DNA of 64,000 nucleotides from an uncultured Pelagibacteraceae bacterium (GTDB lineage: Bacteria > Pseudomonadota > Alphaproteobacteria > Pelagibacterales > Pelagibacteraceae). The notes beneath the pieces were generated by a model. It did not search any database and was not told the DNA's origin. It saw only the letters and a list, made by a program, of their open reading frames with translations. Shown here in pieces: positions 38,432 to 53,648 of this stretch. The first letter of the stretch is position 1. Every line of letters begins with the position of its first letter. Location: assembly GCA_902543405.1 (NCBI GenBank), contig CACBYC010000005.1:1-64000 (forward strand), written 5' to 3'. Both the position numbers and the translations under genes were made by a program.

Positions 38432-40543
38432 TTACTTTATCCTACTTAAAATTTCAATAAAATCTGGCATTATTAATTTTACTCCATCATCAGATAAGTG
38501 GTCGTCATCTAAATAATAAATCTCATTTTGGCTGTGAGTAATACATTTATCTTTTATATTTAAATCACACAATTTTTTATGAGGATATATTCTATATAAA
38601 TTTGGATGCTCAATCTGATCTAGCATTTCAAAAACTTCTTTATTCCTATCTAAAAATAAGTCGTAAGATGTTGTTACATATCTTTTTTCAGGTAATTCAA
38701 AAAATTCATCAGTTGATAAAAAATTTTGAAATAATGATTTCATTTTTAATCTTGGTAAGATTCGTGAGGCTACTACATTCGGAACCCAAAATCCTGCCTC
38801 AGGAACAGGATAAAAAATTATAACATTTATGTTTTTGTCCAATACTTTTGAGAGACTTTTATTAAAAGATTTTTTAATTATTTTTTTTCTATTTTTCTCT
38901 TCTAATCTTTGTTGATTTTCATCTAGAAAATAAGGCAAAAATTTAACTTTTTCAACTCCATCTGTGCCTTGATGGTTGTCAAAGCCTGTTCTATGCCAGT
39001 AAAGTGGAAATCTAGATATTAATATTATAGTTGAAATATTATTATTTTCCAAAATATTATTCACTTCTTTATAAAGAAATTTCATATCTCCGTTATTTCT
39101 CTCAACATTAAAAAAATCTAAAGAAAAGATATTTGAATATTCAAGATAAATTAAATTACGATTAGTAGTGTGAAGTTTATTTTTAATTTCATTTTTAAAA
39201 TTTCCCGCATGAGAATCGCCTATTAATAGAAATGTTTCAGAATTAGGTTTATAAGAGTAAATAGAATTAACTTTTTCTTCAATTGGCTTAATGTTTGTAT
39301 TTTTAAACAGAGGATTGTTTATTTTATCGGTAATCTTAAATTGTTTAAAATATTCAGGAATAATTGTAGAATAACCTTTGTTTTTATATGAATGAAAACA
39401 CAATATAAATAAAGTAAAAATTATTATAAATAAAAATAAAAATAAAGTTTTAGTACTTGTAATTTTTTTTTTTCTAAAAGGTTGCTCAATAAAATTGTAT
39501 GATAGAAATGATAAAAAAAAAATAGATAAAATTAATATTACATAATCTTTAATTGTGTTCATATCATAAGGGGAGAACTTTACAAATGAAAATACAGGAT
39601 AATGCCAAAGATAAAGTGAGTAAGATATTAAACCTATAAAAACTAATGGTTTTAAAGATAAAGAAAAATTTATAAAATTTTTTTCTTGAGCAAATAATAT
39701 AATCAAAAAAGTTCCTATAACAGGTATTAATGTAATTAAGCCAGGATGAGAAAAAATGACTTTGTTAACTAAATTGTATTCAGTTGTTAAACTTTCTTTA
39801 AAAAAAAATATGGATGAAAAAATAAAAATAATGCCGATTATTTGCAAAAAAAATTTGATTGATTTAGATTTTAAGTTAAAATTTTGCAGATGCATTTTTG
39901 CTGCTAGCGCACCTATTAAAAATTCCCATATTCTAGTTGGAAACATATAAAAACTTAGAGACTGATCGTAAAAACTTAAATAAATCGAATATATAAAACT
40001 TAAAATTGCTACGATACTGAAAGCAAAAACTATTTTTCTTTTTGAAAATTTATATATTAAAATTAAACTTAGTGGATATATGAAATAAAATTGTTCCTCA
40101 ACTGAAAGAGACCAATAATGAAGCAATGGTTTATAAATACTTGGTGACGCATAATAATTTATCTCATTAAAATAGAAAAAAAAATTAGAAGTAAAAAAAA
40201 TTCCACTTATTAATGACCCTACGTATTCTAACAATGGTAGTGGTAGGAAAAACAAAATTGCAAAAGGATACGTTACAGCAGCTACAGTTAATAATGCTGG
40301 CATTATTCTTCTAATTCTTCTTAAAAAAAAGTTGCTAAAAGTAAATTCGCCTTTATTTTGCTCAATTAAGATTAATTTAGTTATTAAATATCCAGAAATA
40401 ACAAAGAAAATATCTACACCTACATATCCACCTTTAAAATTAATGTTATAAAAGTTAAAATTAGCATGAAATAATATGACTGATAAAACTGCTATAGCTC
40501 TTAATCCATCAATTTGTGGAATATATGCAATTTTATTAGTCAT
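38432..40543 (-). CDS. OafA-type acyltransferase with C-terminal SGNH domain
   Basis: A 703-residue membrane protein. The N-terminal acyltransferase-3 domain (about 1-380, ten or so helices) begins YIPQIDGLRAIAVLSVILFHAN, with GGYVGVDIFFVISGYLIT and HYWSLSVEEQFYFIYPL as family motifs. The extracytoplasmic SGNH hydrolase-like domain (about 425-700) has the nucleophile region LLIGDSHAGNF and the C-terminal D-x-x-H in DDDHLSDDG. Such proteins O-acetylate lipopolysaccharide, capsule or other surface glycans. It is the last host gene before the tmRNA and its island. Confidence 0.9.
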   Translation of the reverse strand: MTNKIAYIPQIDGLRAIAVLSVILFHANFNFYNINFKGGYVGVDIFFVISGYLITKLILIEQNKGEFTFSNFFLRRIRRIMPALLTVAAVTYPFAILFFLPLPLLEYVGSLISGIFFTSNFFFYFNEINYYASPSIYKPLLHYWSLSVEEQFYFIYPLSLILIYKFSKRKIVFAFSIVAILSFIYSIYLSFYDQSLSFYMFPTRIWEFLIGALAAKMHLQNFNLKSKSIKFFLQIIGIIFIFSSIFFFKESLTTEYNLVNKVIFSHPGLITLIPVIGTFLIILFAQEKNFINFSLSLKPLVFIGLISYSLYLWHYPVFSFVKFSPYDMNTIKDYVILILSIFFLSFLSYNFIEQPFRKKKITSTKTLFLFLFIIIFTLFILCFHSYKNKGYSTIIPEYFKQFKITDKINNPLFKNTNIKPIEEKVNSIYSYKPNSETFLLIGDSHAGNFKNEIKNKLHTTNRNLIYLEYSNIFSLDFFNVERNNGDMKFLYKEVNNILENNNISTIILISRFPLYWHRTGFDNHQGTDGVEKVKFLPYFLDENQQRLEEKNRKKIIKKSFNKSLSKVLDKNINVIIFYPVPEAGFWVPNVVASRILPRLKMKSLFQNFLSTDEFFELPEKRYVTTSYDLFLDRNKEVFEMLDQIEHPNLYRIYPHKKLCDLNIKDKCITHSQNEIYYLDDDHLSDDGVKLIMPDFIEILSRIK

Positions 40544-40766
40544 TAATTAAAATAAAACTTTAGAATATTTATATAATAACTATATTACGTCTGTTGGATT
40601 TCCAACTATGACGATAAACGAATTTCGTAATAACCATTACGGACGTGGGGGCAGTACCCACCACCTCCACCATTTACAACTTAAGGGGGTGAATTAGGAT
40701 CGACGGGTGTCTAAAAGTTGTTCTTTCGTCCGGTATTGTTCCGCCGTGAAGGGCTAATTTATAAAT

Positions 40767-40796
40767 GCTAACGAAAGTTACGCACTTGCAGCTTAA
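40767..40796 (+). other. tmRNA proteolysis-tag reading frame
   Basis: GCT resume codon followed by codons for ANESYALAA and a TAA stop. The YALAA end is the classic degradation signal recognised by ClpXP and SspB-type adaptors. The stop codon lies in the 5' strand of a 9-bp stem, as in other tmRNAs. Confidence 0.95.
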
Positions 40797-40820
40797 TTAG
40801 TTTACTAATTAAGTTACGGG

Positions 40821-40851
40821 GTTTGGGGCACCTGGCAACAGAACGCCCCTT
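40821..40851 (+). repeat. Attachment site copy A (3' end of tmRNA coding piece)
   Basis: 31 bases at the tmRNA 3' end, starting GTTTGGGGCACC and ending AGAACGCCCCTT, are repeated exactly at 46186-46216. The last 14 bases recur at 53632-53645. The segment includes the GGGGC/GCCCC hairpin. After the final TT the sequence departs (CCAG here, ATTA in copy 2, TTTCAT in copy 3), marking the crossover side. It is interpreted as attL of a tmRNA-targeted island. Confidence 0.85.
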
Positions 40852-40904
40852 CCAGATTCTCGGTTCGCTAGAAAAATAAACACTTTTTAGAAAGTAAATA
40901 CAGG

Positions 40905-40928
40905 TTGGCGTCACGGTGGCGTCACAAG
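40905..40928 (+). repeat. Iteron pair B at left end of element 1
   Basis: Two GGCGTCA units (40907-40913 and 40918-40924) start exactly 11 bases apart, followed by CAAG. The same 24-base block with one difference (C to T) occurs at 46097-46120. It lies 53 bases from att copy A. Spacing of one helical turn suits arm-type binding by a recombinase or accessory factor (inference). Confidence 0.7.
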
Positions 40929-40939
40929 AAAGGAAAAAA

Positions 40940-41476
40940 CTATACCTTTTTACAATTAAAAATCATGGTTGGATATTCATCTGGACGTTGATAAAAATTT
41001 TTTTCTAATTTGTAGTCAAATTTTTTCTGTTTATCTTTATAAATAGAATAAAAATAATAACTTTCCACTACATCTCCATCTTTGGATTTATAATCTTGAA
41101 AATCTTTCAACGTCAAAATTCTATTATTATTTAAGACAGCATTTCCAAATAATGTTACCTCTGAATTTTGACCTCCATAATCAAGTTTAAAATTTGGTTT
41201 GTAAGGTTCATATGTATATTTCTTGCTACCATTATTTAACAACCAGTAATATTCATGCAATGTCCATATAAATTTTTGTCTTTCGATATCTAAAGTAAAT
41301 TCTTCATTAGTTATTAATTTATTTATATTATTTTTTTTTGCTTGCTTATAAGCATCATCATTTAAATCTTTAACTTCAACTATATTAGTGCATTTTAACT
41401 TTATTTCTTCAGACATGGTAGATGACGAAAAAAAAAGGGATAACAAAAAGATAGCAAAAACTCTTTTAATTAACAT
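40940..41476 (-). CDS. Exported protein of unknown function (element 1)
   Basis: A 178-residue protein from the ATG at 41476, with a signal peptide LIKRVFAIFLLSLFFSSS and cleavage expected near SEE. A longer frame begins 21 bases upstream, within the upstream gene. The mature protein is acidic to neutral, rich in Lys, Asn and Tyr, and has two cysteines far apart (KLKCTN near the N-terminus, FNCKKV at the C-terminus) that could form a disulfide. No domain recognised. It is the last gene of the operon, overlapping the previous gene by 11 bases. Confidence 0.7.
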   Translation of the reverse strand: MLIKRVFAIFLLSLFFSSSTMSEEIKLKCTNIVEVKDLNDDAYKQAKKNNINKLITNEEFTLDIERQKFIWTLHEYYWLLNNGSKKYTYEPYKPNFKLDYGGQNSEVTLFGNAVLNNNRILTLKDFQDYKSKDGDVVESYYFYSIYKDKQKKFDYKLEKNFYQRPDEYPTMIFNCKKV

Positions 41477-42257
41477 CAGGACAACCAATATATTCACCTG
41501 GATTCATTGCACACATTTCTAATTCTCTTTTTTGTTTTTCTAATTCTCTTTTTTCGAATTCAAGTTTTTTCATTTTATTTTTACTAATCTGTAATTCTTG
41601 CTTAAGATAATTTCTGTTTCTTTCGATAGCTTCTGCCTCTTCCTGAAGTTTGACAGTATTATAAACTTGCATTGCAGTGTCGTCTATTTTTTTTAAAAAT
41701 GTTTCTGATTTTAATCTTGTGTTATCAGTTATAGCTTGTATTTTTCTATTAAATTGTCCCCAGGTAATCTCATTATTTTCTAATTCGGCTAATGCAAATA
41801 AAGTCTGGATGTATCTTCTTTGAGGTATCATTGAGAGTTCTAATATTAATGCTGATTTATAGTTATTTGATCTAATATAATTAAAACACTTGTCTAGCTC
41901 TGAACCATAATCTGATATTAATTCCTTTTCTGTCTGATTAGCAAAACTACTGTCAGAAAAATTTTTATAAGTTTTAATTTTTGGACTTTTATTATGAAAG
42001 CCTAATTTTAAGAAAAGATTATTTTCAATATTTTCTTTTTTACAGTTACTAAAGGCTTCTAATTTTTGAAAAAAATCGTCAGACTCTTTTTGGTTAAATC
42101 CTTTTTGTTTCCAAGCATTTTTAACCTTTCTGTTTTCTTCATAGACTTTATTTGCTTCATCAAAAAAACCAATTGCAAAGTCTTTCCAAAAGCCATTTAA
42201 AAAAACAAAGCATATTAAAAGAAAAACTATTTTATTAACAAACTTCATATTTTTCAT
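41466..42257 (-). CDS. Exported coiled-coil protein of unknown function (element 1)
   Basis: A 263-residue protein with a signal peptide (KFVNKIVFLLICFVFLNGFW). The mature part is helical, with a probable coiled coil at about 205-248 (QEEAEAIERNRNYLKQELQI and on through repeated KxELEKQKRELE). It ends MCAMNPGEYIGCPDVN with two cysteines. An ATG three codons later is an alternative start. It overlaps the next gene upstream by 4 bases. Function unknown; a periplasmic structural or binding role is possible. Confidence 0.7.
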   Translation of the reverse strand: MKNMKFVNKIVFLLICFVFLNGFWKDFAIGFFDEANKVYEENRKVKNAWKQKGFNQKESDDFFQKLEAFSNCKKENIENNLFLKLGFHNKSPKIKTYKNFSDSSFANQTEKELISDYGSELDKCFNYIRSNNYKSALILELSMIPQRRYIQTLFALAELENNEITWGQFNRKIQAITDNTRLKSETFLKKIDDTAMQVYNTVKLQEEAEAIERNRNYLKQELQISKNKMKKLEFEKRELEKQKRELEMCAMNPGEYIGCPDVN

Positions 42258-42796
42258 TTTACATTTCTTAATGGTAAAATAGTTAATTTATCATTTAAAT
42301 TATAAAGACCATAAATTGTCATTCCAAATAATCTAGTTCTGTATTTAGAATAGTGTTTAATAAGGACTATACTTAGACAATCACTCTCAACATTAGGAGC
42401 AAAATCATTACAGAAATACAATGGTAATTCAGAAATTAAGGTATACTCAAACTCATCTCCAGAATTACACTCATCCAAGTATCTTGTTAAAGACATCTCT
42501 TCGTCCCATGATGAGTTATATTTATCTCCAATGGGTATCTCTTTTCCTAAATGATTACCTATTTTATTTACAAATAATTCAAATTTAGGATTACCCCAAT
42601 GTTCGTCTAATTTATTAATATAATTATCGTAGTATGACTCATACCAATCTCCAGATGCTACAGGATATAGGTTATTCAAACATTTTTCTGAGATTTTAGT
42701 ATTGTCATATACCCAAGGTTTATATTTTATTTCCTCTGCAAAAGTTAAGTTAAAAGAAAGAAAATAAGTGAAAAGTATTGTTATTATTTTTATCAT
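42254..42796 (-). CDS. Exported protein of unknown function (element 1)
   Basis: A 180-residue protein with a Sec signal peptide (MIKIITILFTYFLSFNLTFA, cleavage after TFA). The mature part has cysteines in SEKCLNN, LDECNSG, YFCNDF and ESDCLSI, enough for two disulfides in the periplasm. No domain recognised. Its ATG overlaps the upstream stop by 1 base and its stop overlaps the downstream start by 4, so expression is coupled. Confidence 0.7.
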   Translation of the reverse strand: MIKIITILFTYFLSFNLTFAEEIKYKPWVYDNTKISEKCLNNLYPVASGDWYESYYDNYINKLDEHWGNPKFELFVNKIGNHLGKEIPIGDKYNSSWDEEMSLTRYLDECNSGDEFEYTLISELPLYFCNDFAPNVESDCLSIVLIKHYSKYRTRLFGMTIYGLYNLNDKLTILPLRNVK

Positions 42797-43896
42797 TAAT
42801 ATTTGGGCTCTCCTCCTATACTATTTATCATCCAGGATGAATGCCATGGATAACAATTCCCAATTAATTCAAAAATATCTTTGTAATTATCATTGCTTAA
42901 GCAATTCTTTTTAACAACCTCAATCTCCTCTTTTGGAAGAGCATAATAAATTTTATCTTCATAAAGTTTTTCTATTTTCTCATATGTAATTGATAACTTT
43001 TCTAATGTTTCATTAAAATTTTTTATAATTTTATTTTCATTATCTATTTTAATAAGAATAAAACCATCCCATACATCCCACCAATAATTATTACTAAAAT
43101 CTTCATATATTTTATCAAAATTATTTTTAGTATAAGTGTTGAGTTTATCTACTTGTTTATACTTTGCTAATGTAGATAAAATTAAGGCTGGATTTAATTT
43201 GTTGATATCAATTTTCTTATTTAATTCCTCAAATTTTAAATCAAAATTAATTCCGTTTTCATTATCAATTTCAAAAAAAGAAGCTCCGTGGTAAAAATAT
43301 GTAACAGCACTAAAATTTCCACTAATAGTAACGCCATTAGCAAGTATTAATTTGTCATTATTAAGTAAAGCATCTTTTACTTGGTTTATTTTTAATTTAA
43401 TTAATTTATTCTGAATTTTCACTTGACCACTGTCCATATAAGGAACGAATAATCTAAAAGCAGTGAAATCTATATGTTTATATCCATCTCCACAATATTT
43501 GTGCCAACCTACTCCCCAGGCAATAACTTTTCCTTTATGTTTTATTTCATAAATAGAGGTTGCACCACTAACCTTTCTATCCACTAACGTAATCCCTTCA
43601 TTATCTTTGATTGTCATATCTCTAAAATTAGAAAGATATAAGGTTATTTTCTTATCAACTAAATTTATAGTTGATGATGCATTAGTTTGAAATTCTCTAT
43701 CGTATTTACTTTTTTCAAGCTTTGTAATTTTATTTGGTACTTCTTCTAAAATATTTTCAATGTTTAGAGGTGAATTAAAATATTGTTTTGGGTCTGGAGT
43801 ACATGCATTAAAATAAACATTTTGTCCTAATTCAAAAGAATAAGACAAATTTGTAAACAGTAATCCCAGAAATACGATACCTAAAAGTTTTTTCAT
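42796..43896 (-). CDS. Large exported protein of unknown function (element 1)
   Basis: A 366-residue protein with signal peptide MKKLLGIVFLGLLFTNLSYS. The mature N-terminus FELGQNVYFNACTPDPKQY resembles a short SH3-like or cell-surface lead but is not assignable. Cysteines occur near both ends (FNACTP, HKYCGDG, KNCLSND, GNCYPWH). Its first 17 coding bases are identical to those of the gene at 44739, although the mature proteins differ. One base separates it from the neighbour at 43898. Confidence 0.7.
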   Translation of the reverse strand: MKKLLGIVFLGLLFTNLSYSFELGQNVYFNACTPDPKQYFNSPLNIENILEEVPNKITKLEKSKYDREFQTNASSTINLVDKKITLYLSNFRDMTIKDNEGITLVDRKVSGATSIYEIKHKGKVIAWGVGWHKYCGDGYKHIDFTAFRLFVPYMDSGQVKIQNKLIKLKINQVKDALLNNDKLILANGVTISGNFSAVTYFYHGASFFEIDNENGINFDLKFEELNKKIDINKLNPALILSTLAKYKQVDKLNTYTKNNFDKIYEDFSNNYWWDVWDGFILIKIDNENKIIKNFNETLEKLSITYEKIEKLYEDKIYYALPKEEIEVVKKNCLSNDNYKDIFELIGNCYPWHSSWMINSIGGEPKY

Positions 43897-43897
43897 G

Positions 43898-44245
43898 TTA
43901 ATAAAATATTACACAATTCTTATCTGTATAGGATTTTGAATATCCAGACAAAGCATCTTGGGTTCTATTAATGACATACTTGCCTCCATAATCCATATAA
44001 ATATCAAAATCAAAATCACTTTGATTATCGCTGAACTCTCCGTAGACGCTAATTTTGTATTGTCGTTGATCTTTTGTTATTTTAAAGGTTATGCCATCAT
44101 TATTTGGAAAGCTTAATATAATTTCTGTATCTTTAACTTCATACATGGCTTTTCCATGTCTGAAATTATCACAAGTCCAAGTTTCAGTATAAGCACTCCC
44201 ACAAAATAACAAACTAAGAACAAGGATCGATAGAAGTTTTTTCAT
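43898..44245 (-). CDS. Small exported protein of unknown function (element 1)
   Basis: A 115-residue protein with signal peptide MKKLLSILVLSLLFCGSAYT, similar to those of its neighbours. The mature part (TWTCDNFRHGKAMYEVKDTE...) alternates short beta strands and has two cysteines, one near each end (WTCDN, KNCVIFY), suggesting a small disulfide-closed beta domain. No family recognised. It is 11 bases after the gene at 44257. Confidence 0.68.
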   Translation of the reverse strand: MKKLLSILVLSLLFCGSAYTETWTCDNFRHGKAMYEVKDTEIILSFPNNDGITFKITKDQRQYKISVYGEFSDNQSDFDFDIYMDYGGKYVINRTQDALSGYSKSYTDKNCVIFY

Positions 44246-44256
44246 AAATTTATTAT

Positions 44257-44739
44257 TTAGAATTTGGATGTTCCTCTTTTTTTACATTCCATTGTGTATG
44301 CATCATCAATATTAAATTTTTCTGTTTTACCATCAATAGGCTCTTCAGACACTCCTATTCCTGCAAACCCTTGAAGTCGATCAATTTTAACTAACCATAA
44401 ATGATCTTTAAAATCAGAACTCCACCATTCTGTCCAATCACTGATATAGGTTGTGTATTTTTTATATTCTCCAGATTTAGATTTATATTTCGAACCCTCA
44501 ACAAGCGGTCTCGCCTCTGACTCAACTACGTATTCATCGATTTTTTTAACAAAAAATTCTACTTTGTTACCCCCTGATCCTTGAAATACTTGAATAATTT
44601 TTTCATCAAAATTTATATAAATATAGTCATCAAAAGCTATTCCCATAATGATATCTTTGCATTTTAATTTAGTCATTACAGCATTTGCACTTTGGCAAAA
44701 CAAAATACTTAAAACCACGATCCCTAAAAGTTTTTTCAT
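44257..44739 (-). CDS. Exported protein of unknown function (element 1)
   Basis: A 160-residue protein with signal peptide MKKLLGIVVLSILFCQSANA. The mature part begins VMTKLKCKDIIMGIAFDDYI and ends TMECKKRGTSKF, again with one cysteine near each end. Predicted strands with Trp-rich stretches (SDWTEWWSSDFKDHLWLV) suggest a beta fold. The overall plan (one signal peptide, beta-rich body, N- and C-terminal Cys) resembles the gene at 43898 and could reflect distant paralogy. It overlaps the lipoprotein gene by 4 bases. Confidence 0.68.
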   Translation of the reverse strand: MKKLLGIVVLSILFCQSANAVMTKLKCKDIIMGIAFDDYIYINFDEKIIQVFQGSGGNKVEFFVKKIDEYVVESEARPLVEGSKYKSKSGEYKKYTTYISDWTEWWSSDFKDHLWLVKIDRLQGFAGIGVSEEPIDGKTEKFNIDDAYTMECKKRGTSKF

Positions 44740-45206
44740 TTATTTCTTGGAAGAACTCTCACTTGCTCTCCATAAACAATGGTAACTTTATCATCTAATT
44801 TAAATTTTGATTTGTTATCTTTATCAGTACCTTGAATAACTCCTATTGGTTTATCCTCACCATCAATTGAAATTACATATTGAAAACCATTGTGTTCACC
44901 CAGTTTAACAGTTGAATAATAACCAATTACACCTCCAATTGTTGTACCTGCAATTATTGCAATATCTGTTCCTCTTCCGCTACCTATGTCTTCTGCAATT
45001 ATACCTCCAATTGCTCCACCAACTGCGGCGCCTATATCTGATGTTTTGCCTTTAATTTTTACAGGTACAATATCAACTATTGTGCCAAAGTCTGTATTTA
45101 AGACTACTTGACTATCATCTTTACTTGCGTTGTAAGGATTTGAAGTGCATGAGTAAATAAATAATAATATTGCTATAACCAGGTATTGTATTTTAATTTT
45201 GTCCAT
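44736..45206 (-). CDS. SlyB/Pcp-like outer-membrane lipoprotein with glycine zipper
   Basis: A 156-residue lipoprotein. The signal MDKIKIQYLVIAILLFIYSC has its lipobox cysteine at residue 20. A glycine-rich hydrophobic segment, DIGAAVGGAIGGIIAEDIGS followed by TDIAIIAGTTIGGVIGYYS, is the 2TM glycine-zipper domain of the SlyB/Pcp family. The C-terminal part (FQYVISIDGEDKPIGVIQGT ... VRVLP) is the usual beta domain. SlyB helps keep the outer membrane stable under stress in E. coli. It is the only island gene of element 1 with a recognisable family. Confidence 0.8.
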   Translation of the reverse strand: MDKIKIQYLVIAILLFIYSCTSNPYNASKDDSQVVLNTDFGTIVDIVPVKIKGKTSDIGAAVGGAIGGIIAEDIGSGRGTDIAIIAGTTIGGVIGYYSTVKLGEHNGFQYVISIDGEDKPIGVIQGTDKDNKSKFKLDDKVTIVYGEQVRVLPRNK

Positions 45207-45672
45207 AAATTATTTTTTTTAATTTTTCTATTTGTTGTTTTAATTCATCATTTATTTCTATATCAAACCTAAAATCTAATTCTGCTTTAGTTACTTTTTT
45301 TACTTTTCCCCATGACAAAGCGTGCATTCTTAATTTAAAAGTTTGTTTTGATATTCCTTTTCTACCTATTCTAAATTCTTGGAAGTAATCATCAACGACG
45401 AATCCCTCTTTATCTAGCATTTTAAAGTCATAGGCACCTTTAATCTCCTCACTACAATTATTTTGCAATCTAACAATAAAACGTGCATCGCTCCAACCCA
45501 TATTTCCAAGAGTACTTAATGCATTTCTTTTTGATTTAATATCTACTACCTTAATACAATTGATCAAATCTTTATCAACTGACTGTACTTCAAAATCCCA
45601 TTTTTGAGTTTTAGCAAACGCAATCTGATTAAAAAATAAAACAATAATGGCAACAAAACATATCTTTTTCAT
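45193..45672 (-). CDS. Exported protein of unknown function (element 1, operon start)
   Basis: A 159-residue protein with signal peptide MKKICFVAIIVLFFNQIAFA. The mature region has an immunoglobulin-like strand pattern (SDARFIVRLQNNCSEEIKGAYDFKMLDKEG), similar in shape to FxLYD-type domains that describe protein modification of a conserved core, and ends in a charged helix (ELKQQIEKLKKIIYGQN). Two cysteines (INCIKV, NNCSEE). First of eight overlapping genes; overlap with the next is 14 bases. Function unknown. Confidence 0.7.
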   Translation of the reverse strand: MKKICFVAIIVLFFNQIAFAKTQKWDFEVQSVDKDLINCIKVVDIKSKRNALSTLGNMGWSDARFIVRLQNNCSEEIKGAYDFKMLDKEGFVVDDYFQEFRIGRKGISKQTFKLRMHALSWGKVKKVTKAELDFRFDIEINDELKQQIEKLKKIIYGQN

Positions 45673-45736
45673 GATCCAAGATTAACAAATCCTGAACCAC
45701 GAGTCTGCCTCTATTTATTCATGATATCCAATAAAA

Positions 45737-45940
45737 CTAAGTAGCTATTGCCTTTTTTGAATTCTGGACATAGCAATCTCTACATACTGGTTTTTCTGCT
45801 ATTTCAAATTCTGAAAAATATATTTTCATTCTCTTTCTGACTGGTTTTTCTTGTCCACAGAAACCACACCTTTCGGTTCTGATTTTTTCTAAAGTTTCCG
45901 CAGTTACGCTATCCTGAGAATTTATATTATACCAAGCCAT
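45737..45940 (-). CDS. Small protein with two CxxC pairs (putative zinc-binding)
   Basis: A 67-residue protein with CGFC and CRDC motifs about 30 residues apart (ERCGFCGQEKPVRKRM ... KPVCRDCYVQ), the layout of a treble-clef or zinc-ribbon domain. There is no signal peptide, so it is cytoplasmic, unlike the other genes of element 1. It could bind nucleic acid or act as a small regulator; this is inference. It lies 64 bases upstream of the exported-protein operon. Confidence 0.65.
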   Translation of the reverse strand: MAWYNINSQDSVTAETLEKIRTERCGFCGQEKPVRKRMKIYFSEFEIAEKPVCRDCYVQNSKKAIAT

Positions 45941-46073
45941 TGAATTATTTATGGTACCAAAAAGTTTTCAATTGTCCTGTCTTTATTCGACTTGCTATAC
46001 ACCTAAAGCAGTGGGACCCCTTTATGTAGTTATTGGTATGTGGGTAACTTTAATTAAATCTATTTTGGACTTT

Positions 46074-46092
46074 GTTTGGGACCCCTCTTCCA
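46074..46092 (+). repeat. Degenerate att-like motif
   Basis: GTTTGGGACCCCTCTTCCA keeps the outer parts of att copy A (GTTTGGGG at its start, CCCCTT plus the following CCA at its end) but lacks the middle. It is followed 4 bases later by iteron pair B', echoing the A-then-B order at the left end. A shorter GTGGGACCCCTTT occurs at 46011-46023. These may be relics of earlier integrations. Confidence 0.4.
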
Positions 46093-46096
46093 ATAT

Positions 46097-46120
46097 TTGG
46101 CGTCATGGTGGCGTCACAAG
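46097..46120 (+). repeat. Iteron pair B' near right end of element 1
   Basis: 24 bases differing at one position from 40905-40928, with two GGCGTCA units (46099-46105 and 46110-46116) 11 bases apart. Same orientation as the left copy. It lies 65 bases before att copy A'. Confidence 0.7.
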
Positions 46121-46185
46121 TTCCTTGATTGGTGTTCTATTAATGGTAGTATTTATCTGTGTTTATTAGTGGATCTTGATAAACA

Positions 46186-46216
46186 GTTTGGGGCACCTGG
46201 CAACAGAACGCCCCTT
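46186..46216 (+). repeat. Attachment site copy A' (exact 31-bp repeat of tmRNA 3' end)
   Basis: Identical to 40821-40851 over 31 bases and different on both sides (preceding A instead of G, following ATTA instead of CCAG). It marks the junction between two tandem elements. It lacks the tmRNA tag and acceptor piece, so it is not a functional second tmRNA. Confidence 0.88.
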
Positions 46217-46260
46217 ATTAAAGGTTTCCCTTATCCACACTCATTTTCTAAAAATAAAGT

Positions 46261-46291
46261 TCAATGAAGGTTCAATGAAGTTTCAATGAAG
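46261..46291 (+). repeat. Three TCAATGAAG iterons at left end of element 2
   Basis: TCAATGAAG at 46261-46269, 46272-46280 and 46283-46291, spaced exactly 11 bases start to start. The same 9-mer occurs three times near the right end (53520-53584). It starts 45 bases inside att copy A'. Interpreted as arm-type sites for recombination. Confidence 0.75.
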
Positions 46292-46314
46292 TTTGAAAAC
46301 AACAGAAATAAGTT

Positions 46315-46488
46315 TTACCTCTTATTTTTAATTTTAAATCCTTGAGACTCTAATATTTTAATCAAATTAATTTTCATTTGGTCCCTAGATGTTTTTCTGT
46401 CACCTATTTTCTCAAAAAATATTGGTTTTAAACCTCTATCTTTTTTTGATTTAAAATAGTCTTTTATAGATTGTATTTTAATTTTCAT
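46315..46488 (-). CDS. Small basic protein of unknown function
   Basis: A 57-residue frame starting MKIKIQSIKDYFKSKKDRGL and ending KILESQGFKIKNKR. It has an unusually perfect ribosome-binding site for this genome (AGGAGG, 3 bases before ATG), which argues that it is expressed. About a third of its residues are Lys or Arg and it contains no cysteine or membrane segment. Its place beside the att site and iterons, and its size and charge, would suit an excisionase-like or DNA-bending factor or a control protein, but no family motif is seen. Confidence 0.55.
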   Translation of the reverse strand: MKIKIQSIKDYFKSKKDRGLKPIFFEKIGDRKTSRDQMKINLIKILESQGFKIKNKR

Positions 46489-46589
46489 GTGCCTCCTTTA
46501 GCGTTATTATTTTATGTCTGAAGCAAGTAGAGTAATTTCTAAATCACAGACAATTTTAATATATCATATTAAAAATATTTAACCAGTCC

Positions 46590-46997
46590 TTGAAAATTGA
46601 AAAATTGTTCCTAAATATATCATTGTTAACCATCTTAAAAACTAAAAAACTCACTTACATTTATGGAAAATATAATCTGCCGAAAGGTTGGAAATACGAA
46701 GTATTTGATAAAAATGAAAATCCAATCGCAAAATACTATTCAGCATTAACTGATTATGGGGAAATGATTAAATACTCTGACATAATACATCCTAAAAATA
46801 GTAATATGTTTGCAGAATTTGATGACTACATAAACATCAAAAAAGAAGACTTAAAGGGAATTACTTTTGAACAACTATTGTTCTATTTAAAAAATATAGA
46901 ACCAAAAGAAAAACAATCAAAGAAAGATTGTTTAATTCAATTATTAGATAAAAAACAAATCAAATATGAGGAAGGACTATGGGATGAAGCAGTTTAA
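46590..46997 (+). CDS. Protein of unknown function (element 2)
   Basis: A frame of 135 residues from a TTG codon; no ATG occurs before about residue 58, so the start is uncertain. The region KGWKYEVFDKNENPIAKYYSALTDYGEM looks like a small beta domain, and the acidic C-terminal part (GITFEQLLFYLKNIEPKEKQ) is helical. No family recognised. It ends 8 bases before the convergent stop of the EVE-like gene. Confidence 0.5.
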   Translation: MKIEKLFLNISLLTILKTKKLTYIYGKYNLPKGWKYEVFDKNENPIAKYYSALTDYGEMIKYSDIIHPKNSNMFAEFDDYINIKKEDLKGITFEQLLFYLKNIEPKEKQSKKDCLIQLLDKKQIKYEEGLWDEAV

Positions 46998-47005
46998 TAC
47001 AGACA

Positions 47006-47422
47006 CTATTTCAAATTAAAAAAACTCTCTAATTTTTTTGTATCAAACTCATTTAATTTTAACGGAGCATTAAGTAATCTTAAACCAGGACTTTTTGCTA
47101 AAGCAAAAACTTCTAATTCATTTTTAATATTATCAAAATCTAACCAATTTTCTTGATTAAGAATTTTTAATGGTTTTGTTTTAATCGCTTTGGTGAATTC
47201 TTTGTCGTATTTATAGGTATTTGGTAAATCAAAAATTTCATTGCTAGTTATTTTTCTAATATCAGAAAATTTTTTTTGTTTTGTTATGTATGTAAAAATT
47301 TTATCATTATTTTCAAATTTTTTATTTTTAAATACTCCTAGATGCATTCCTAGAAATTCAAATTTATTTTGAAAATCATTTTCCCAGTTAAACAAACTTT
47401 CTACAAATATCCAATTGTTCAT
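47006..47422 (-). CDS. EVE-like (PUA-fold) putative modified-base-binding protein
   Basis: A 138-residue cytoplasmic protein. It opens MNNWIFVESLFNW and continues with FLGMHLGVFKNKKFENNDKI, then IFTYITKQKKFSDIRKITSNEIFD, which resembles the EVE-domain order: an initial Trp strand, a G-x-(W/H) segment, a GD-x-(V/I)-x-x-Y-x-T strand and an x-K-I-T-S strand. EVE/YTH/PUA-fold domains bind modified bases and are often attached to or beside restriction enzymes. The match is by pattern only. It is divergent from the nuclease gene across 51 bases, fitting a role in the same system. Confidence 0.5.
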   Translation of the reverse strand: MNNWIFVESLFNWENDFQNKFEFLGMHLGVFKNKKFENNDKIFTYITKQKKFSDIRKITSNEIFDLPNTYKYDKEFTKAIKTKPLKILNQENWLDFDNIKNELEVFALAKSPGLRLLNAPLKLNEFDTKKLESFFNLK

Positions 47423-47473
47423 AATTTAAATATATAACTGGTTTAGTATTTTTTTTAGTGCTATTTTTTTATT

Positions 47474-48532
47474 ATGAAAATAGCAGATAAATTAGGTTTA
47501 AAAGATGAAATTTTTGCAAGAATGGTGGTTAAAACAAAAATGTTATTTTCTAATGTAATTGGACATGCTGCAGAACTACATTATGAAAAATATTTAAAAA
47601 ATTCTAAAATTCAATTTACAAAAGCAGATACAGATAATCACTTTGATTACATAGTCGACAATAAAAAAGAGCAAGTAAAAAGATGGGAAAGCGCTGGTAC
47701 AAACGATAAATTTCTTGCGATCAATTTAACTCAAACCCATGGTGATCGTTCTGGAGAAGGAAATTTTTACCATAAAAAATCTTTTGATAAATTAGTTGCT
47801 TATGATGTTCTTTTTAAAAGTTTTAAAAAATTTGACATTAGCGAAATTGAAACCAACAAAAGATTTAAAGATTATATTGTTGGCAAATTTAAAATAAAAA
47901 GAGAAACTGAAAATCTATTAGATAATGAACAAAAAGAATTTCTTAATCTCATTAAAGTTAAAAACAAAGATTATCCTGATGCACTAGAAAAATATAAATC
48001 TAAATTAAATTTAAATTATTTGGATATACTTAAAAAAGTTTGCAATCTTACACTCGAAGAAATTGATAGTTTATTTACTGATGAAAACTTCAGACTAGTA
48101 ACAGGTGCAAAAGGTTTTGCAGCAGAGGAACACTTCAATGTATTGCTTGAAAAAAATAAACTTAATTATAAACAAGATAAAGATATGTATTCTAAAGTTG
48201 ATCATTGGGTTGGAAAACACAGGGTGCAAGTAAAAATTCCAAATTTAAGAGCAGTCACTAATGAAAAATGGGCATTCAAAACACATAAGTCACACGGTTC
48301 AGGTGTTAAAGAACTCTACACTACCGATGAATTTGATTTTGTTGCTCTATTCATAGGATTTAATATGAACGAAAAAATAGATAGATACTTGCCTGTATCA
48401 GTCAAAAATGAATTTTTAATTATTCCTACAAAAGATCTTCCAGAACATCCAAAATATCCCGGTCATTTAAAAAGAGTTTCTTCATTTAATAAGGATTATT
48501 ATAAAGTTAATGATTTATCTTTATTAATTTAA
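47474..48532 (+). CDS. Putative restriction endonuclease with two PD-(D/E)XK-like domains
   Basis: A 352-residue protein that looks like an internal duplication. Domain 1 (about 25-145) has GHAAELHYEKYL (E34), then D58 in NHFDYIV and a QVK motif at 67-69 after E66. Domain 2 (about 210-350) repeats the plan with GFAAEEHFNVLL (E218), D243 in SKVDHWV, and Q252-V-K254. Each also has a HG segment (THGDRSGEG; SHGSGVKE) and a later FDKLVAYDVLF / FDFVALFIGF strand. Helix-E, D and (E/Q)xK are the usual catalytic set of this superfamily. It sits 16 bases before two methyltransferase genes. Specificity unknown. Confidence 0.65.
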   Translation: MKIADKLGLKDEIFARMVVKTKMLFSNVIGHAAELHYEKYLKNSKIQFTKADTDNHFDYIVDNKKEQVKRWESAGTNDKFLAINLTQTHGDRSGEGNFYHKKSFDKLVAYDVLFKSFKKFDISEIETNKRFKDYIVGKFKIKRETENLLDNEQKEFLNLIKVKNKDYPDALEKYKSKLNLNYLDILKKVCNLTLEEIDSLFTDENFRLVTGAKGFAAEEHFNVLLEKNKLNYKQDKDMYSKVDHWVGKHRVQVKIPNLRAVTNEKWAFKTHKSHGSGVKELYTTDEFDFVALFIGFNMNEKIDRYLPVSVKNEFLIIPTKDLPEHPKYPGHLKRVSSFNKDYYKVNDLSLLI

Positions 48533-48548
48533 AAGATATTAAATTTAT

Positions 48549-49364
48549 ATGGCAGAATCGATATTTAGATACCCTGGGGGAAAATTAAAAGCGTTAAAAT
48601 TTATAAATCCATTTTGGCAACAAATAAATCATGATGAGTATAGAGAACCATTTGTTGGTGGTGGTTCTGTATATATCCATAAACCAAATGTTCAATTTAA
48701 TTGGATTAATGACTTAGACAAAGATCTTTATTCTTTTTATAAAATTATATCTAAAATTGATGATAGAGAAAAATTAATTAATGACTTAACTAAAGCGAAA
48801 ATTAATAAAAAAAATCACGACAAATTATACTATTCCAAACCTAAAACTAATTTTGAAAGAGCGTATAGATTTTATATTTTAAATAGATGTTCTTTTTCTG
48901 GAATAACAAAATGGAATTCTTTTATTGGAGATGTGAGATATAATATTAAGAGAGCACAAAAGTTGATAAATCTTGTTGGTGAAAAATTAAAGAAAACAAA
49001 AATAACTAATTCTGATTTTGAAAAAGTTATTGTAGAAAAACCTAGTGGAAAAAAAGTATTTCTTTTTCTAGATCCACCCTATGCTGAAAGTAGACAAATA
49101 GCGGCATATAATATTCATTTTGAAAAAAATGATCATGAGAGGTTGGCAAAATTATTAAAACAAACAAACCATCCCTTTTTATTAACTTATGATAATTGTG
49201 AATACATAAGAAAACTTTATAAATGGGCAAATTTTTATGATCATACTTGGACATACTCTGTAGCAAATTCAAAAGTTCATCATAATCCAAGAGAAAGTGG
49301 CAATGAACTATTTATCTCAAATTTTAAACTCAAGTCGATTAATGAAAATCTCAAACTAATATGA
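48549..49364 (+). CDS. D12-class DNA adenine-N6 methyltransferase 1
   Basis: A 271-residue Dam/MboI-type methyltransferase. Motif X is RYPGGKLKALKFI near residue 7, motif I REPFVGGGSVYI at 32-43, INDLDKDLYSFYKII near 53, and the catalytic motif IV DPPY at 175-178 within LFLDPPYAESRQ. S-adenosylmethionine-dependent adenine methylation is expected, protecting DNA from the adjacent nuclease. It overlaps methyltransferase 2 by 4 bases (ATGA). The two proteins are clear paralogues with different central (target-recognition) regions. Confidence 0.9.
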   Translation: MAESIFRYPGGKLKALKFINPFWQQINHDEYREPFVGGGSVYIHKPNVQFNWINDLDKDLYSFYKIISKIDDREKLINDLTKAKINKKNHDKLYYSKPKTNFERAYRFYILNRCSFSGITKWNSFIGDVRYNIKRAQKLINLVGEKLKKTKITNSDFEKVIVEKPSGKKVFLFLDPPYAESRQIAAYNIHFEKNDHERLAKLLKQTNHPFLLTYDNCEYIRKLYKWANFYDHTWTYSVANSKVHHNPRESGNELFISNFKLKSINENLKLI

Positions 49365-50137
49365 AAAGAGTAAAAACTTGCTTAAGAACGCCAGGGGGTA
49401 AATTTTATGGATTTAGAAAATTAGAAAAATATTTTGATACTGATTTTAATGAATATAGAGAACCATTTTTAGGTGGTGGAAGTGTTTATCTATCTTTAAA
49501 TAAAAATACAAAAAAAAATTGGGTAAATGATATTGATAAAGATCTTATAAATTTTTATCAGACAATAATTGATGATAATAAAAAAAAGCAACTTTATAAA
49601 CTTTTAAGAAATGAAAGTGTTGATAAATCTAGATATAAAAAAATATTAAATTTTTCTCCAAAAAATAAAATAGAAGAGGCATATAAATATTTTTATATTA
49701 ATAGAACCTCTTTTAGCGGCATTATGAATAAACCAAGATGGGGTTACAAAATTGGAAGTAGTGTTGAACCAAAAGGATGGATTGATCGTATTGAACCTGT
49801 TTCCTTAAAGATGAAAAATACTGATTTAACTTCTCTTGATTTTAAAAAAGTAATATCTAAAAAAAGTTCAAATAATGTTTTAATATATTGTGATCCTCCA
49901 TATTATAAGGTTTCAAAGGGAATTTATAAAAATGAATTCTCTCAAAAAAATCATGAAGATCTTTGTGATTTACTAAAAAAAACTAATTTCAAATTCTTAC
50001 TTTCATACAATTATCATAAAGAATTATTAAAAATGTATAAATGGGCATTCATTAATAGTACTGACTGGAAATACTTTATGAGTGAAGGAAGAAGGTTGGT
50101 TGGAAACGAATTAATCATTTCAAATTATAAAATTTAA
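49361..50137 (+). CDS. D12-class DNA adenine-N6 methyltransferase 2
   Basis: A 258-residue paralogue of the preceding enzyme. Motif X is LRTPGGKFYGFRKLE near residue 8, motif I REPFLGGGSVYL at 33-44, VNDIDKDLINFYQ near 55, and motif IV DPPY at 178-181 in IYCDPPYYKVSKG. Two separate m6A enzymes are typical of systems with an asymmetric recognition sequence, each methylating one strand (known for several type IIS systems). Its stop overlaps the convergent helicase gene by 4 bases. Confidence 0.9.
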   Translation: MKRVKTCLRTPGGKFYGFRKLEKYFDTDFNEYREPFLGGGSVYLSLNKNTKKNWVNDIDKDLINFYQTIIDDNKKKQLYKLLRNESVDKSRYKKILNFSPKNKIEEAYKYFYINRTSFSGIMNKPRWGYKIGSSVEPKGWIDRIEPVSLKMKNTDLTSLDFKKVISKKSSNNVLIYCDPPYYKVSKGIYKNEFSQKNHEDLCDLLKKTNFKFLLSYNYHKELLKMYKWAFINSTDWKYFMSEGRRLVGNELIISNYKI

Positions 50138-53100
50138 ATTTCATAATTTAAAAATTTAAAAAAATTATTCATAAGTTTTATTTGATCTAAGTTTTTTGGA
50201 GAACTATCTAATAATTTAGGGTTAAAAAGTATTATTGAAGTAACTTGTGCTCTTGAAATTGCAACATTCAATCTATTTCTACTAAAAAAAAACTCTTTAT
50301 TTCTGGGTAAGGAATCGTTGTCAGATGAAGTCATAGAAATAATAGTTATTGGTGCTTCTTGACCTTGAAATTTATCAATAGTACCCACTCTAGGGTTCTT
50401 AATCTTTGCTTCTTCTAATTTAGAAATTAAAAGATTAACCTGTGTATTGTATGGACTAATAATCAGAAAATCATCAACGGTTAATTTTCTTTTTTTACCA
50501 TTATCATCAAAATCACTTCCTATTAATTGTTGCATTAAATCTTTTACAATTTCAAACTCTTCAATACTTGTTTGAACATTATTTTTGTGATCCATTTGGA
50601 TGTAGTGAATTCCATCTTTTTTAATTAAAGATTTTTTGTCAAATTTAATTATTCTCTTATCTGTTCTTTCATCACAGACCAGTCTTTCTTCATAAAAATT
50701 TGATGAAATAAAATTATTTATCTTAGAATTTAATCTGTAAGTTTTATTTAAAAATATTCCTCTATCTTCTGGAATTGTATCTTTACCTTCTAAAAGATAA
50801 TCTAAAATTGATTGACCGGACTCGTTAGGATGTGTTCCTCTTATTGGTTGTCCTAATTGATTTTGATCTCCTATTAAAACTATATTTTTTGCTATATTGC
50901 CTATGCTAATTAAATCTGCCAAACTTACCTGACCTGCTTCATCTATAAAAAGATAATCAATTTTCTCATCATAAAATGAACTTGCTAAATGATATTTGGT
51001 TCCCGCAAATATTTGACCTACATTATCTTCTTTTAAAGCATCCATAAAAATAGGATCTTTTTCATATGTTTTTATAAATTCTCCATTAAATATAGTATCC
51101 TCATCTTCCAAGTTTCCTCTTTTATAACCTTCAAAGTTAAATTGTTTTTCTTTTGCCATGTCTTCAATTCTTTGGAGCAAATTATGAATTACTTTGTGAG
51201 ATAAACCTGTAATTGCTATCTTTTTATTTTGTTTTAACAATTCTATGATTGCATTAGATGCTTGAAAAGTTTTACCAGTTCCTGGTGGTCCTTGAATGTA
51301 AATAAAACTATCTTCTAAATTAGAAATAATTTTTGGAATCTCTTTACTAAAGTCATCTGACTTAACTATTTTTTCTCCATTTTTAATTCCTTTAATATTT
51401 GGGTGTTTCTTTTCTAAAAAGTCATTCAATGCTTTATATTTTTTCTCATTATTGATTAATGTATCTATGAATTTGTAAGTATTGGAAATGAGTTTAGTAT
51501 TTGGTCTAGGTTTATCGGGACCTATAGATAATAATTGAGGTAACAAACCTTGAGATTTTCCTCTCTTCAATAAAAGTTCCTTTTTTTTATAATCAATGTC
51601 AATTATTGTTCCTGCATAATCATTTTGTTCAATATCTTGATTGTTTGCAATTACAGTTTTTTTACTTTTTCTTAATTTAAAATCTTGGTCTTCAAATTTA
51701 TATGAATATAACAATGATCTTTTGTCAGTAGTAGGTTCACCATTTGACTTCATGTTTCCTATGCACTCAGGATCATCAATTAGTTCTTCGTCAGATTTTG
51801 TTCTTCTATCAAAAAACTCTCTCCATGCGGGTTTGTCTTCACGATTATAAAAACCAATAATGTCAGACATTAATTGTTTTATTTGTTTATTTTTAATTTT
51901 AGACTTTTCAACTTTCTCTTGGTAAGTAATCATATCCACTTCCCAATCTCTTAGTTCCATTTCACTATCCTTTTTTTGTGAAACAAACCAAGAAGTTTCT
52001 GAGGGTTTGATGTCCAACAACCATTTATGAAGTTGGTAAGTAGAATTGCAATCTTGTTTATTGTAACTTTCTATCTCATCTAAAAAGTTTTGATCCTGAG
52101 TTTCTAACCATTCTATATAGTATTCTTGAGATGCATCTCCCCTTTGAACATCACCTTCTCTTTTAAACTCATAAAATTTTTCAACATTTTTAAGTGAGTA
52201 ACTATTTTCTGAAATGAAAAGTCCTTGTCTATTTACCTCTAATAAATTTACAAATTTATCTAGGTTTAAATAGTGATCATATTCAATACCCTTGACTTTG
52301 TGAAATGAAGTTAGTTTTAATAACGCAGTAATCTCATACGAACCATAATGATAAATTTTTGAATTTGGATACTTTTTAAAATGAGATTTAGTAAAATTAA
52401 AAAATTTAATTAAGTTTTTTTTTTCTTCTTCTTTGCTATGAGACCATAATGCCTCAAATTTCTCTTTTCCATTTTCTATATAATAAATTCCTAATAAATA
52501 TTCCAAACCTCCTGGATAGATATGATCTTCAACACTTTCTATATCAAAGTACAAATCACATTCTGATGGTTCAGGTAATAAATTAAAACCTTTAAAACCA
52601 TTTAGATTATTAGGATTTGGTTGATGAATTGGGACATTTGTTTTTTCATACTCTTTTTGAAGTTTTGCTTGAGTGATTAACTTATGTGATATTTCTTTCC
52701 TAAAACCTTTAAGAATTTTATTTGGATTTTGTTTGGAGAGTTTAGTTGCTGTATCAATTTTAAATTCTAATAGTTTTTTTAAATGTACTTTAGTTAATCC
52801 ACCAATTTGATTAAGATTATCCTCTTTAATCCAAATTTTTTCGCATTCTTCTTGCCATTCGCAAGTACTACAAAAACTACACTTCTCTGGTCTTTGTTTA
52901 TCTACACCATTTCCAACAAACTTCTCGTAATTTTCTCTATGAATTTTAAAAAACTCATTAACTTGATTTACTTGAACATCTTCCCTAACCATATTCTTTA
53001 AAACAATAGTAAATCTTTTTGGAAGAACGCCTTGAGTGTTCTCCAACATATATGTGTACATTCCTAATTGAATGATGTGATCTGGTTTTGGTTTATTTGA

Positions 53101-53499
53101 ATACTTTGTATCAATTACCTCATAACTATAATCACCAAATTTTGATTTAAGTTCTTTATTGATTATTAAAAAATCAAATTCACCAGTCCACTTATCTTTC
53201 TTTAACCATCCACCATGAATAATTTCCCAACCGTCTTTCATTGCTTGAATTGTTTTTGAGATTTTTTCTTCTCTAGTTAAATCAGATTTTTTTAAATCTA
53301 ATACTTTCTTATGTGTTTTTTTAAGTTCTTTTAGATAATCTTTTTCATGTTGATTACCTTTTTCAAATCTTATTTTATCGTTAATATTAAGTTCAATTTT
53401 TTTAAGATTTAATTTTTTTTCATTAATTTCATTAAAAATTATGTACTTACAACCTAAGTACTTTTTAAGCATTGTGGGTGAGTAAAGATTTTTTGCCAT
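50134..53499 (-). CDS. Multidomain nuclease-helicase (RecB/Cas4-like nuclease, RNase H-like exonuclease, SF1 helicase)
   Basis: A 1121-residue protein from the ATG at 53499; a TTG 24 bases upstream, inside an iteron, is judged less likely. Domain 1 (about 1-225) is a TM0106/RecB-like nuclease: D109 in GEFDFLI, EVIDTKYS near 127-134, QLGMYTY near 144, and a cysteine cluster CSFCSTCEWQEEC near 207-219, likely an Fe-S site. Domain 2 (about 318-495) is RNase H-like (DIES near 319, YHYGSYE, YSLKNVEKFY, YNKQDC). Domain 3 is an SF1 Upf1/Dna2-type helicase: GPPGTGKT near 737, DEAGQ near 853, IGDQNQLGQ, TYRLN, GTIDKFQGQE and RLNVAISRA. It could process foreign DNA. Confidence 0.85.
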   Translation of the reverse strand: MAKNLYSPTMLKKYLGCKYIIFNEINEKKLNLKKIELNINDKIRFEKGNQHEKDYLKELKKTHKKVLDLKKSDLTREEKISKTIQAMKDGWEIIHGGWLKKDKWTGEFDFLIINKELKSKFGDYSYEVIDTKYSNKPKPDHIIQLGMYTYMLENTQGVLPKRFTIVLKNMVREDVQVNQVNEFFKIHRENYEKFVGNGVDKQRPEKCSFCSTCEWQEECEKIWIKEDNLNQIGGLTKVHLKKLLEFKIDTATKLSKQNPNKILKGFRKEISHKLITQAKLQKEYEKTNVPIHQPNPNNLNGFKGFNLLPEPSECDLYFDIESVEDHIYPGGLEYLLGIYYIENGKEKFEALWSHSKEEEKKNLIKFFNFTKSHFKKYPNSKIYHYGSYEITALLKLTSFHKVKGIEYDHYLNLDKFVNLLEVNRQGLFISENSYSLKNVEKFYEFKREGDVQRGDASQEYYIEWLETQDQNFLDEIESYNKQDCNSTYQLHKWLLDIKPSETSWFVSQKKDSEMELRDWEVDMITYQEKVEKSKIKNKQIKQLMSDIIGFYNREDKPAWREFFDRRTKSDEELIDDPECIGNMKSNGEPTTDKRSLLYSYKFEDQDFKLRKSKKTVIANNQDIEQNDYAGTIIDIDYKKKELLLKRGKSQGLLPQLLSIGPDKPRPNTKLISNTYKFIDTLINNEKKYKALNDFLEKKHPNIKGIKNGEKIVKSDDFSKEIPKIISNLEDSFIYIQGPPGTGKTFQASNAIIELLKQNKKIAITGLSHKVIHNLLQRIEDMAKEKQFNFEGYKRGNLEDEDTIFNGEFIKTYEKDPIFMDALKEDNVGQIFAGTKYHLASSFYDEKIDYLFIDEAGQVSLADLISIGNIAKNIVLIGDQNQLGQPIRGTHPNESGQSILDYLLEGKDTIPEDRGIFLNKTYRLNSKINNFISSNFYEERLVCDERTDKRIIKFDKKSLIKKDGIHYIQMDHKNNVQTSIEEFEIVKDLMQQLIGSDFDDNGKKRKLTVDDFLIISPYNTQVNLLISKLEEAKIKNPRVGTIDKFQGQEAPITIISMTSSDNDSLPRNKEFFFSRNRLNVAISRAQVTSIILFNPKLLDSSPKNLDQIKLMNNFFKFLNYEI

Positions 53500-53519
53500 A
53501 TTAGAATTTACCCCAATTC

Positions 53520-53584
53520 TCAATGAAGTCTAGAAACGGGGTTTTTGAAAAATGGTCAAACTCTCAATGAAGTCTTCAATGAAG
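53520..53584 (+). repeat. Three TCAATGAAG iterons at right end of element 2
   Basis: TCAATGAAG at 53520-53528, 53564-53572 and 53576-53584. Spacings are 44 (four times 11) and 12 bases. Same sequence and orientation as at 46261-46291. It ends 47 bases before att copy A''. Confidence 0.75.
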
Positions 53585-53624
53585 TATTCCAAATATCTAG
53601 GTATTTTGGTATAATTTGGTTCTC

Positions 53625-53648
53625 GGGGGACACAGAACGCCCCTTTTT
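53625..53648 (+). terminator. Hairpin plus T-tract at att copy A'' (displaced tmRNA terminator)
   Basis: GGGGG (53625-53629) can pair with CCCC (53640-53643) and is followed by TTTTT (53644-53648). The last 14 bases before the T-tract extension, ACAGAACGCCCCTT (53632-53645), equal the end of the tmRNA att repeat. Reading across, the original tmRNA would have ended GCCCCTTTTT; the island now separates the T-tract from the gene. Confidence 0.6.
53632..53645 (+). repeat. Attachment site copy A'' (14-bp partial, right end of island)
   Basis: ACAGAACGCCCCTT matches the last 14 bases of the 31-bp att copies. Upstream it diverges, though GGGGG is kept, so the hairpin shape survives with a shorter loop. 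It is 22 bases from the tRNA-Leu 3' end and is taken as attR. Confidence 0.65.

Follow-up and report, generated by a model that had tools for sequence, protein, structure and literature searches.

A candidate single-chain Type IIT restriction-modification system on a tmRNA-associated island in a Pelagibacteraceae genome

What is encoded by a locus in which a nuclease with an internal duplication is followed by two adenine methyltransferases, and how would the two strands of its target be handled? The locus lies in the window, which is the whole stretch of 64,000 nucleotides analysed here, from a genome of 1.13 Mb in 37 contigs. The size of this genome, its permuted alphaproteobacterial tmRNA and the homologue of the nuclease in Pelagibacteraceae point to a host probably of SAR11 type. 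A preliminary description had read it as a restriction-modification system with a tandem nuclease and two m6A methyltransferases, and this part stood, while its view that the architecture is unrecognised among known enzymes did not. The locus is almost certainly a restriction-modification system in the broad sense, and it is probably a Type II system of the Type IIT kind, with a single-chain nuclease, that lies on an island adjoining the tmRNA gene. The genes and domains concerned are:

47006..47422, minus strand: accessory protein of 138 amino acids, family unproven, divergent from R across a 51-base gap
47474..48532, plus strand: R, tandem PD-(D/E)XK nuclease of 352 amino acids (open reading frame, internal homology, model, conserved sites)
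R, about residues 1-145: N-terminal domain with active-site residues E34, D58, Q67 and K69
R, about residues 195-352: C-terminal domain with active-site residues E218, D243, Q252 and K254, preceded by a helical linker
48549..49364, plus strand: M1, D12-class N6-adenine DNA methyltransferase of 271 amino acids (GGGS and DPPY motifs; PF02086)
49361..50137, plus strand: M2, second D12-class adenine methyltransferase, 258 amino acids (PF02086)

The coordinates of R and the motif positions first reported for it (E34/D58/K69 and E218/D243/K254) are correct, and Q67 and Q252 complete both sites. That R holds two copies of one domain was also proposed at that stage, and a half-versus-half alignment and a profile comparison both agree. 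Alignment of the N half to the C half scored 75, where shuffled sequences averaged 34.3 (z 6.5; none of 1000 shuffles as high), profile-profile comparison of the halves gave a probability of 92%, and the N half of the homologue from Pelagibacteraceae AG-439-A02 against the C half of the window protein gave a z of 10.8 in the shuffle test. The halves have diverged to about 30% identity to each other.

No match to R at a useful E-value was found in Pfam, NCBIfam, PADLOC, PHROGs or the PDB sequences, and its homologues matched the Pfam families Mrr_cat and PDDEXK_5 below threshold, in a D..QxK stretch. PADLOC did pick out the nucleases next to two further D12 methyltransferases, which served as positive controls (REase_II, E 1.2e-23 and 7.9e-194). 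Nucleases adjoining other D12 methyltransferases in Acinetobacter and on cyanobacterial plasmids were considered as relatives and proved unrelated to R.

An AlphaFold2 model based on the window protein and its two closest homologues (mean pLDDT 72.6, pTM 0.74) places in each half a long helix followed by three strands, bearing E34/D58/QVK69 or E218/D243/QVK254; pLDDT falls below 50 at residues 72-99 and 129-144 of the N half. The top fold match of the C half was the homing endonuclease I-Ssp6803I (Z 9.4, 120 residues, 3.2 A). The C half also matched Hjc resolvases (Z 7-8), with SPARDA nucleases next, and the N half matched NhoI (Z 6.4) and EcoRV; values of Z below 8 can reflect common arrangements, and the rows here are concordant with one another and with the motifs. 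Further rows were PD-(D/E)XK enzymes as well (PvuII, DpnI, RecU), and among the fold matches listed none was to a solved Type IIT enzyme such as BbvCI or Mva1269I, an absence that does not speak against such a likeness. The nuclease fold expected in both halves was found in each as PD-(D/E)XK, R having the alpha-beta-beta-beta core, the acidic residues and the (D/E/Q)xK motif of the superfamily at the level of sequence and model. Two uncharacterised giant-virus proteins in BFVD (A0A1V0SIJ8 and A0A3G5A8P9; Klosneuvirus and Hyperionvirus) gave full-length Foldseek matches to the R model (E about 4e-7). They were rejected as tandem counterparts of R, as both domains align and their relative placement does not (TM 0.3).

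Five R loci were available for comparison, the window and the following four:

L003, Pelagibacteraceae AG-439-A02: R 64% identical, contig ending inside M1
L004, Ca. Wolfebacteria: R 60% identical, gene order R-M1-M2 as in the window
L002, Planktothrix agardhii plasmid: R (NIES204_44480) about 23-28% identical, preceded by a small HTH gene, with two D12 genes running towards it
L058, phage-like 42-kb IMG/VR contig: McrB/McrC-like genes on one side of the R module and a lysozyme gene on the other

Residues E34, D58, Q67, K69, D243, Q252 and K254 occur in five of five proteins and E218 in four, the Planktothrix protein having Q instead; T88-H89-G90 and H244 are likewise invariant in this five-way alignment, which includes the window protein. 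Both E/D/QxK sites persist to 20-23% identity, barring the one E-to-Q change. A first BLAST of the halves had pointed to a swapped domain order in the Planktothrix protein, which was discarded as profile comparison with the window protein shows collinear domains (N with N 96.8%, C with C 94.8%). We read this conservation as evidence that both nuclease sites are in use, and with both sites conserved a role of one domain per strand would be favoured over a split into recognition and cutting. One site could be weak, given that the domains differ and that one homologue is without the C-domain glutamate. A genuine restriction-modification system in which one R domain cuts, the other serves DNA recognition or dimerisation and a double-strand cut needs two R molecules appears unlikely: the Planktothrix substitution, the distant likeness of the halves and the better match of the C half to solved nucleases would suit it, while the D and QxK residues, invariant in both domains of all five proteins at 20-23% identity, would be needless in a non-catalytic domain.

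The two genes after R were described earlier as overlapping paralogues encoding D12 methyltransferases, and the matches to PF02086 agree (M1 122 bits, E 3.5e-35; M2 85 bits, E 8.8e-24; curated cut-off 22 bits), as do a mutual identity of 37% and a 4-base overlap of the M2 start with the M1 end. Their orthologues in the Wolfebacteria locus are 71% (M1) and 58% (M2) identical. Both proteins match the PADLOC Type II model PDLC03247 (MTase_II; M1 5.8e-66, M2 7.8e-48) and the PD-Lambda-5_B model (M1 4.1e-38, M2 2.6e-36). No PD-Lambda-5 partner was matched among the scanned proteins, and R had no PADLOC match at E up to 1. PD-Lambda-5 was therefore rejected as the identity of the system, its components being incomplete, the Type II model fitting M1 and M2 far better and R matching no PADLOC model.

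The closest solved relative of M1 is 7m6b, a stand-alone methyltransferase with a palindromic site, so that paired methyltransferases alone do not prove an asymmetric target. In DpnII-type systems, one of the methyltransferases prefers single-stranded DNA. A palindromic-site system, with R as a natural single-chain pseudo-dimer and M1 and M2 either redundant or differing in substrate, would accommodate the stand-alone 7m6b and also the end-to-end alignment of the R model with engineered single-chain PvuII (3ksk), which is weak (216 residues, Z 5.5, rmsd 6.1 A). We regard this arrangement as quite improbable, as a symmetric target needs neither the full-length D12 pair seen in every complete locus nor halves diverged to about 30% identity.

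D12 methyltransferases adjoin R at all five loci, across distant hosts and varied gene orders, and a D12 pair is present at four of them (the window, Planktothrix, Wolfebacteria and the phage-like contig), the AG-439-A02 locus being cut by the contig end. The phage-like copy was found blind, through a search with the methyltransferases alone: two of 80 viral loci with D12 genes held two such genes, and one of these two carried R. The linkage of a nuclease gene to methyltransferase genes that marks Type II restriction-modification is seen at five of five loci, and it is because every R homologue sits beside D12 methyltransferases that the system is placed in Type II; of the new evidence this linkage weighs most. 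Homologues of R lying without methyltransferase neighbours, which the preliminary description had named as counting against its reading, made up none of the five. A repair or resolvase-like nuclease with no restriction role, set beside methyltransferases by chance, is suggested by the nearness in fold of the C half to a homing endonuclease and Hjc resolvases, and is hardly credible against linkage at all five loci, in unrelated hosts and in mobile or variable DNA.

The R gene of the Wolfebacteria locus carries an internal TAG (L004 4145-4151) and both methyltransferases there are undamaged, a pattern that would fit loss of restriction with methylation retained. The R family is rare. No further copies were found in 297 genomes of the order, 398 of the phylum and 385 of the class, which are samples with overlapping draws, and none other among 333 genomes in the phylum of the Wolfebacteria genome. 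A Nostoc plasmid (L007 2648-4343) carries an unexpected combination, a HaeIII-family nuclease gene that overlaps the gene of a D12 adenine methyltransferase; HaeIII itself is paired with a cytosine methyltransferase.

The 138-amino acid protein divergent from R had been labelled EVE-like. It had no Pfam match at E up to 1 (PF01878 included), and comparison of its profile with those of EVE proteins from this order gave a probability of 0.7% (P 0.036), which is not significant. Its structure model was too low in confidence to use (pLDDT 38), and EVE identity is unproven. Hits at E 1e-4 that suggested EVE relatives elsewhere in the order were treated as chance, and one of these, L011, when read through was a riboflavin-pathway gene. 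The gene was found only with the two Pelagibacteraceae copies of R (the window and AG-439-A02), the AG-439-A02 homologue being 54% identical and in the same place beside R. In AG-439-A02 the neighbour of the R module differs from that in the window, being a fumarase-like gene, and the short contig showed neither a tRNA nor a tmRNA gene. The 138-amino acid gene and R have accordingly been kept together at a different genomic place, which supports a functional link.

The module lies in DNA inserted at the tmRNA gene, which is permuted, of alphaproteobacterial type and intact (Rfam match 40555-40853). The relevant features are:

40838..40851, plus strand: attachment repeat core at the tmRNA 3' end, first copy
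46186..46219, plus strand: second copy of the tmRNA 3' end, about 31 bases, left border of the restriction-modification piece
50134..53523, minus strand: TM0106-family RecB-like nuclease fused to an SF1 helicase, 1129 amino acids (TIGR03491, E 7.3e-71)
53632..53645, plus strand: third core copy ACAGAACGCCCCTT, right border of the insert, next to tRNA-Leu

The core ACAGAACGCCCCTT is present in three copies against 0.14 expected by chance. In two relatives, G074 (L052) and G1035 (L055), the tmRNA runs through the core into tRNA-Leu and the nadA-side sequence, giving clean empty sites, and as the tmRNA joins directly to the right border in both, the 12.8 kb between the repeats is inserted DNA. 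The insert (40838-53645) is made up of two pieces in tandem, about 5.4 kb and 7.4 kb long, and the second contains the restriction-modification module. No integrase was recognised in the portion of the insert that was scanned. Such a double insertion next to the tmRNA, taken with the empty sites in two relatives, fits a horizontally moving cassette.

Several other features of the region were recorded. The first inserted piece (40940-45672) encodes a series of small proteins, all from the minus strand; none passes a Pfam cut-off, and several have secretion-signal-like starts (MKKLLxI...). Short repeats of TTCAATGAAG occur at 46267-46300 and 53515-53584, near both ends of the second piece and by the attachment repeats. 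Next to the tmRNA, a 703-amino acid membrane acyltransferase with an SGNH domain is encoded at 38432-40543; this gene is absent in G074, where its neighbours are only about 30 bases apart. The gene of the 1129-amino acid helicase-nuclease is convergent with M2 in the same island piece as the module, in PADLOC its product matches helicase regions of MkoA and MkoC, and a homologue (38% identity) was present in only one of 20 other genomes of the genus. It was considered as a component of the system and is placed outside the module, because no such gene is listed beside R in the Planktothrix, Wolfebacteria and phage-like loci.

Under the Type IIT reading, R would fold into two homologous PD-(D/E)XK domains that form a built-in heterodimer. 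Its target would be non-palindromic, perhaps near-palindromic, and each domain would cut one strand with its own E/D/QxK metal site. M1 and M2, as diverged copies of a D12 m6A methyltransferase, would share the protection of that target between them, one strand each. A more specific version is possible, though doubtful, in which R is a natural single-chain heterodimer derived from an internally duplicated resolvase or homing-nuclease-like domain, with halves that read and cut their own half-sites and with the small, divergently transcribed Pelagibacteraceae protein as an integral regulator or reader.

Type IIT enzymes have two different catalytic sites, one for each strand of an asymmetric target, exist in single-chain and heterodimeric forms, and generally come with two methyltransferases, of which each serves one strand (PMC4081073). 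Two different catalytic sites are present in R as judged from sequence and model, and two D12 genes are present, each of which would serve one strand. Single-chain Type IIT enzymes with two catalytic sites and two methyltransferases are already known (PMC4081073), and it is on this point that the architecture cannot be called unrecognised.

In a study of Pelagibacter genomes methyltransferases were mostly orphan (PMC9516812), which makes a complete restriction-modification cassette notable in these streamlined marine bacteria, and its location beside the tmRNA, where two relatives have clean empty sites, illustrates one route by which such genomes acquire defence genes. None of the libraries searched has a model for this restriction enzyme family, and the presence of two active sites suggests that strand-specific nickases could be obtained by single point mutations.

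Among known systems, R resembles Mva1269I, BsrI, BtsCI, AciI, BssSI and BsrBI, which are single chains with two catalytic domains, usually with two methyltransferases and asymmetric sites; a controller gene accompanies AciI and apparently also the Planktothrix R gene. Unlike in these single-chain enzymes, the domains of R are diverged copies of one domain within just 352 residues. R has no detectable sequence relation to nuclease models of Pfam, NCBIfam or PADLOC. I-Ssp6803I and the Hjc resolvases, the nearest solved folds of the C domain, are alike at fold level only, being single-domain in the matches and having other biological roles. In the heterodimeric BbvCI and Bpu10I, as in R, there are two homologous PD-(D/E)XK halves, but the subunits are separate (275 and 285 residues), and no sequence match between R and these enzymes was seen in the Pfam models or PDB sequences searched. 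The R1 and R2 subunits of BbvCI are 27% identical and each cuts one strand, and full activity is retained when R1 is tethered to R2 by a 21-residue linker (PMC6326814). The sequence family of R appears to be new to the Pfam, NCBIfam, PADLOC and PDB sequence libraries, while the concept that it would embody is known already.
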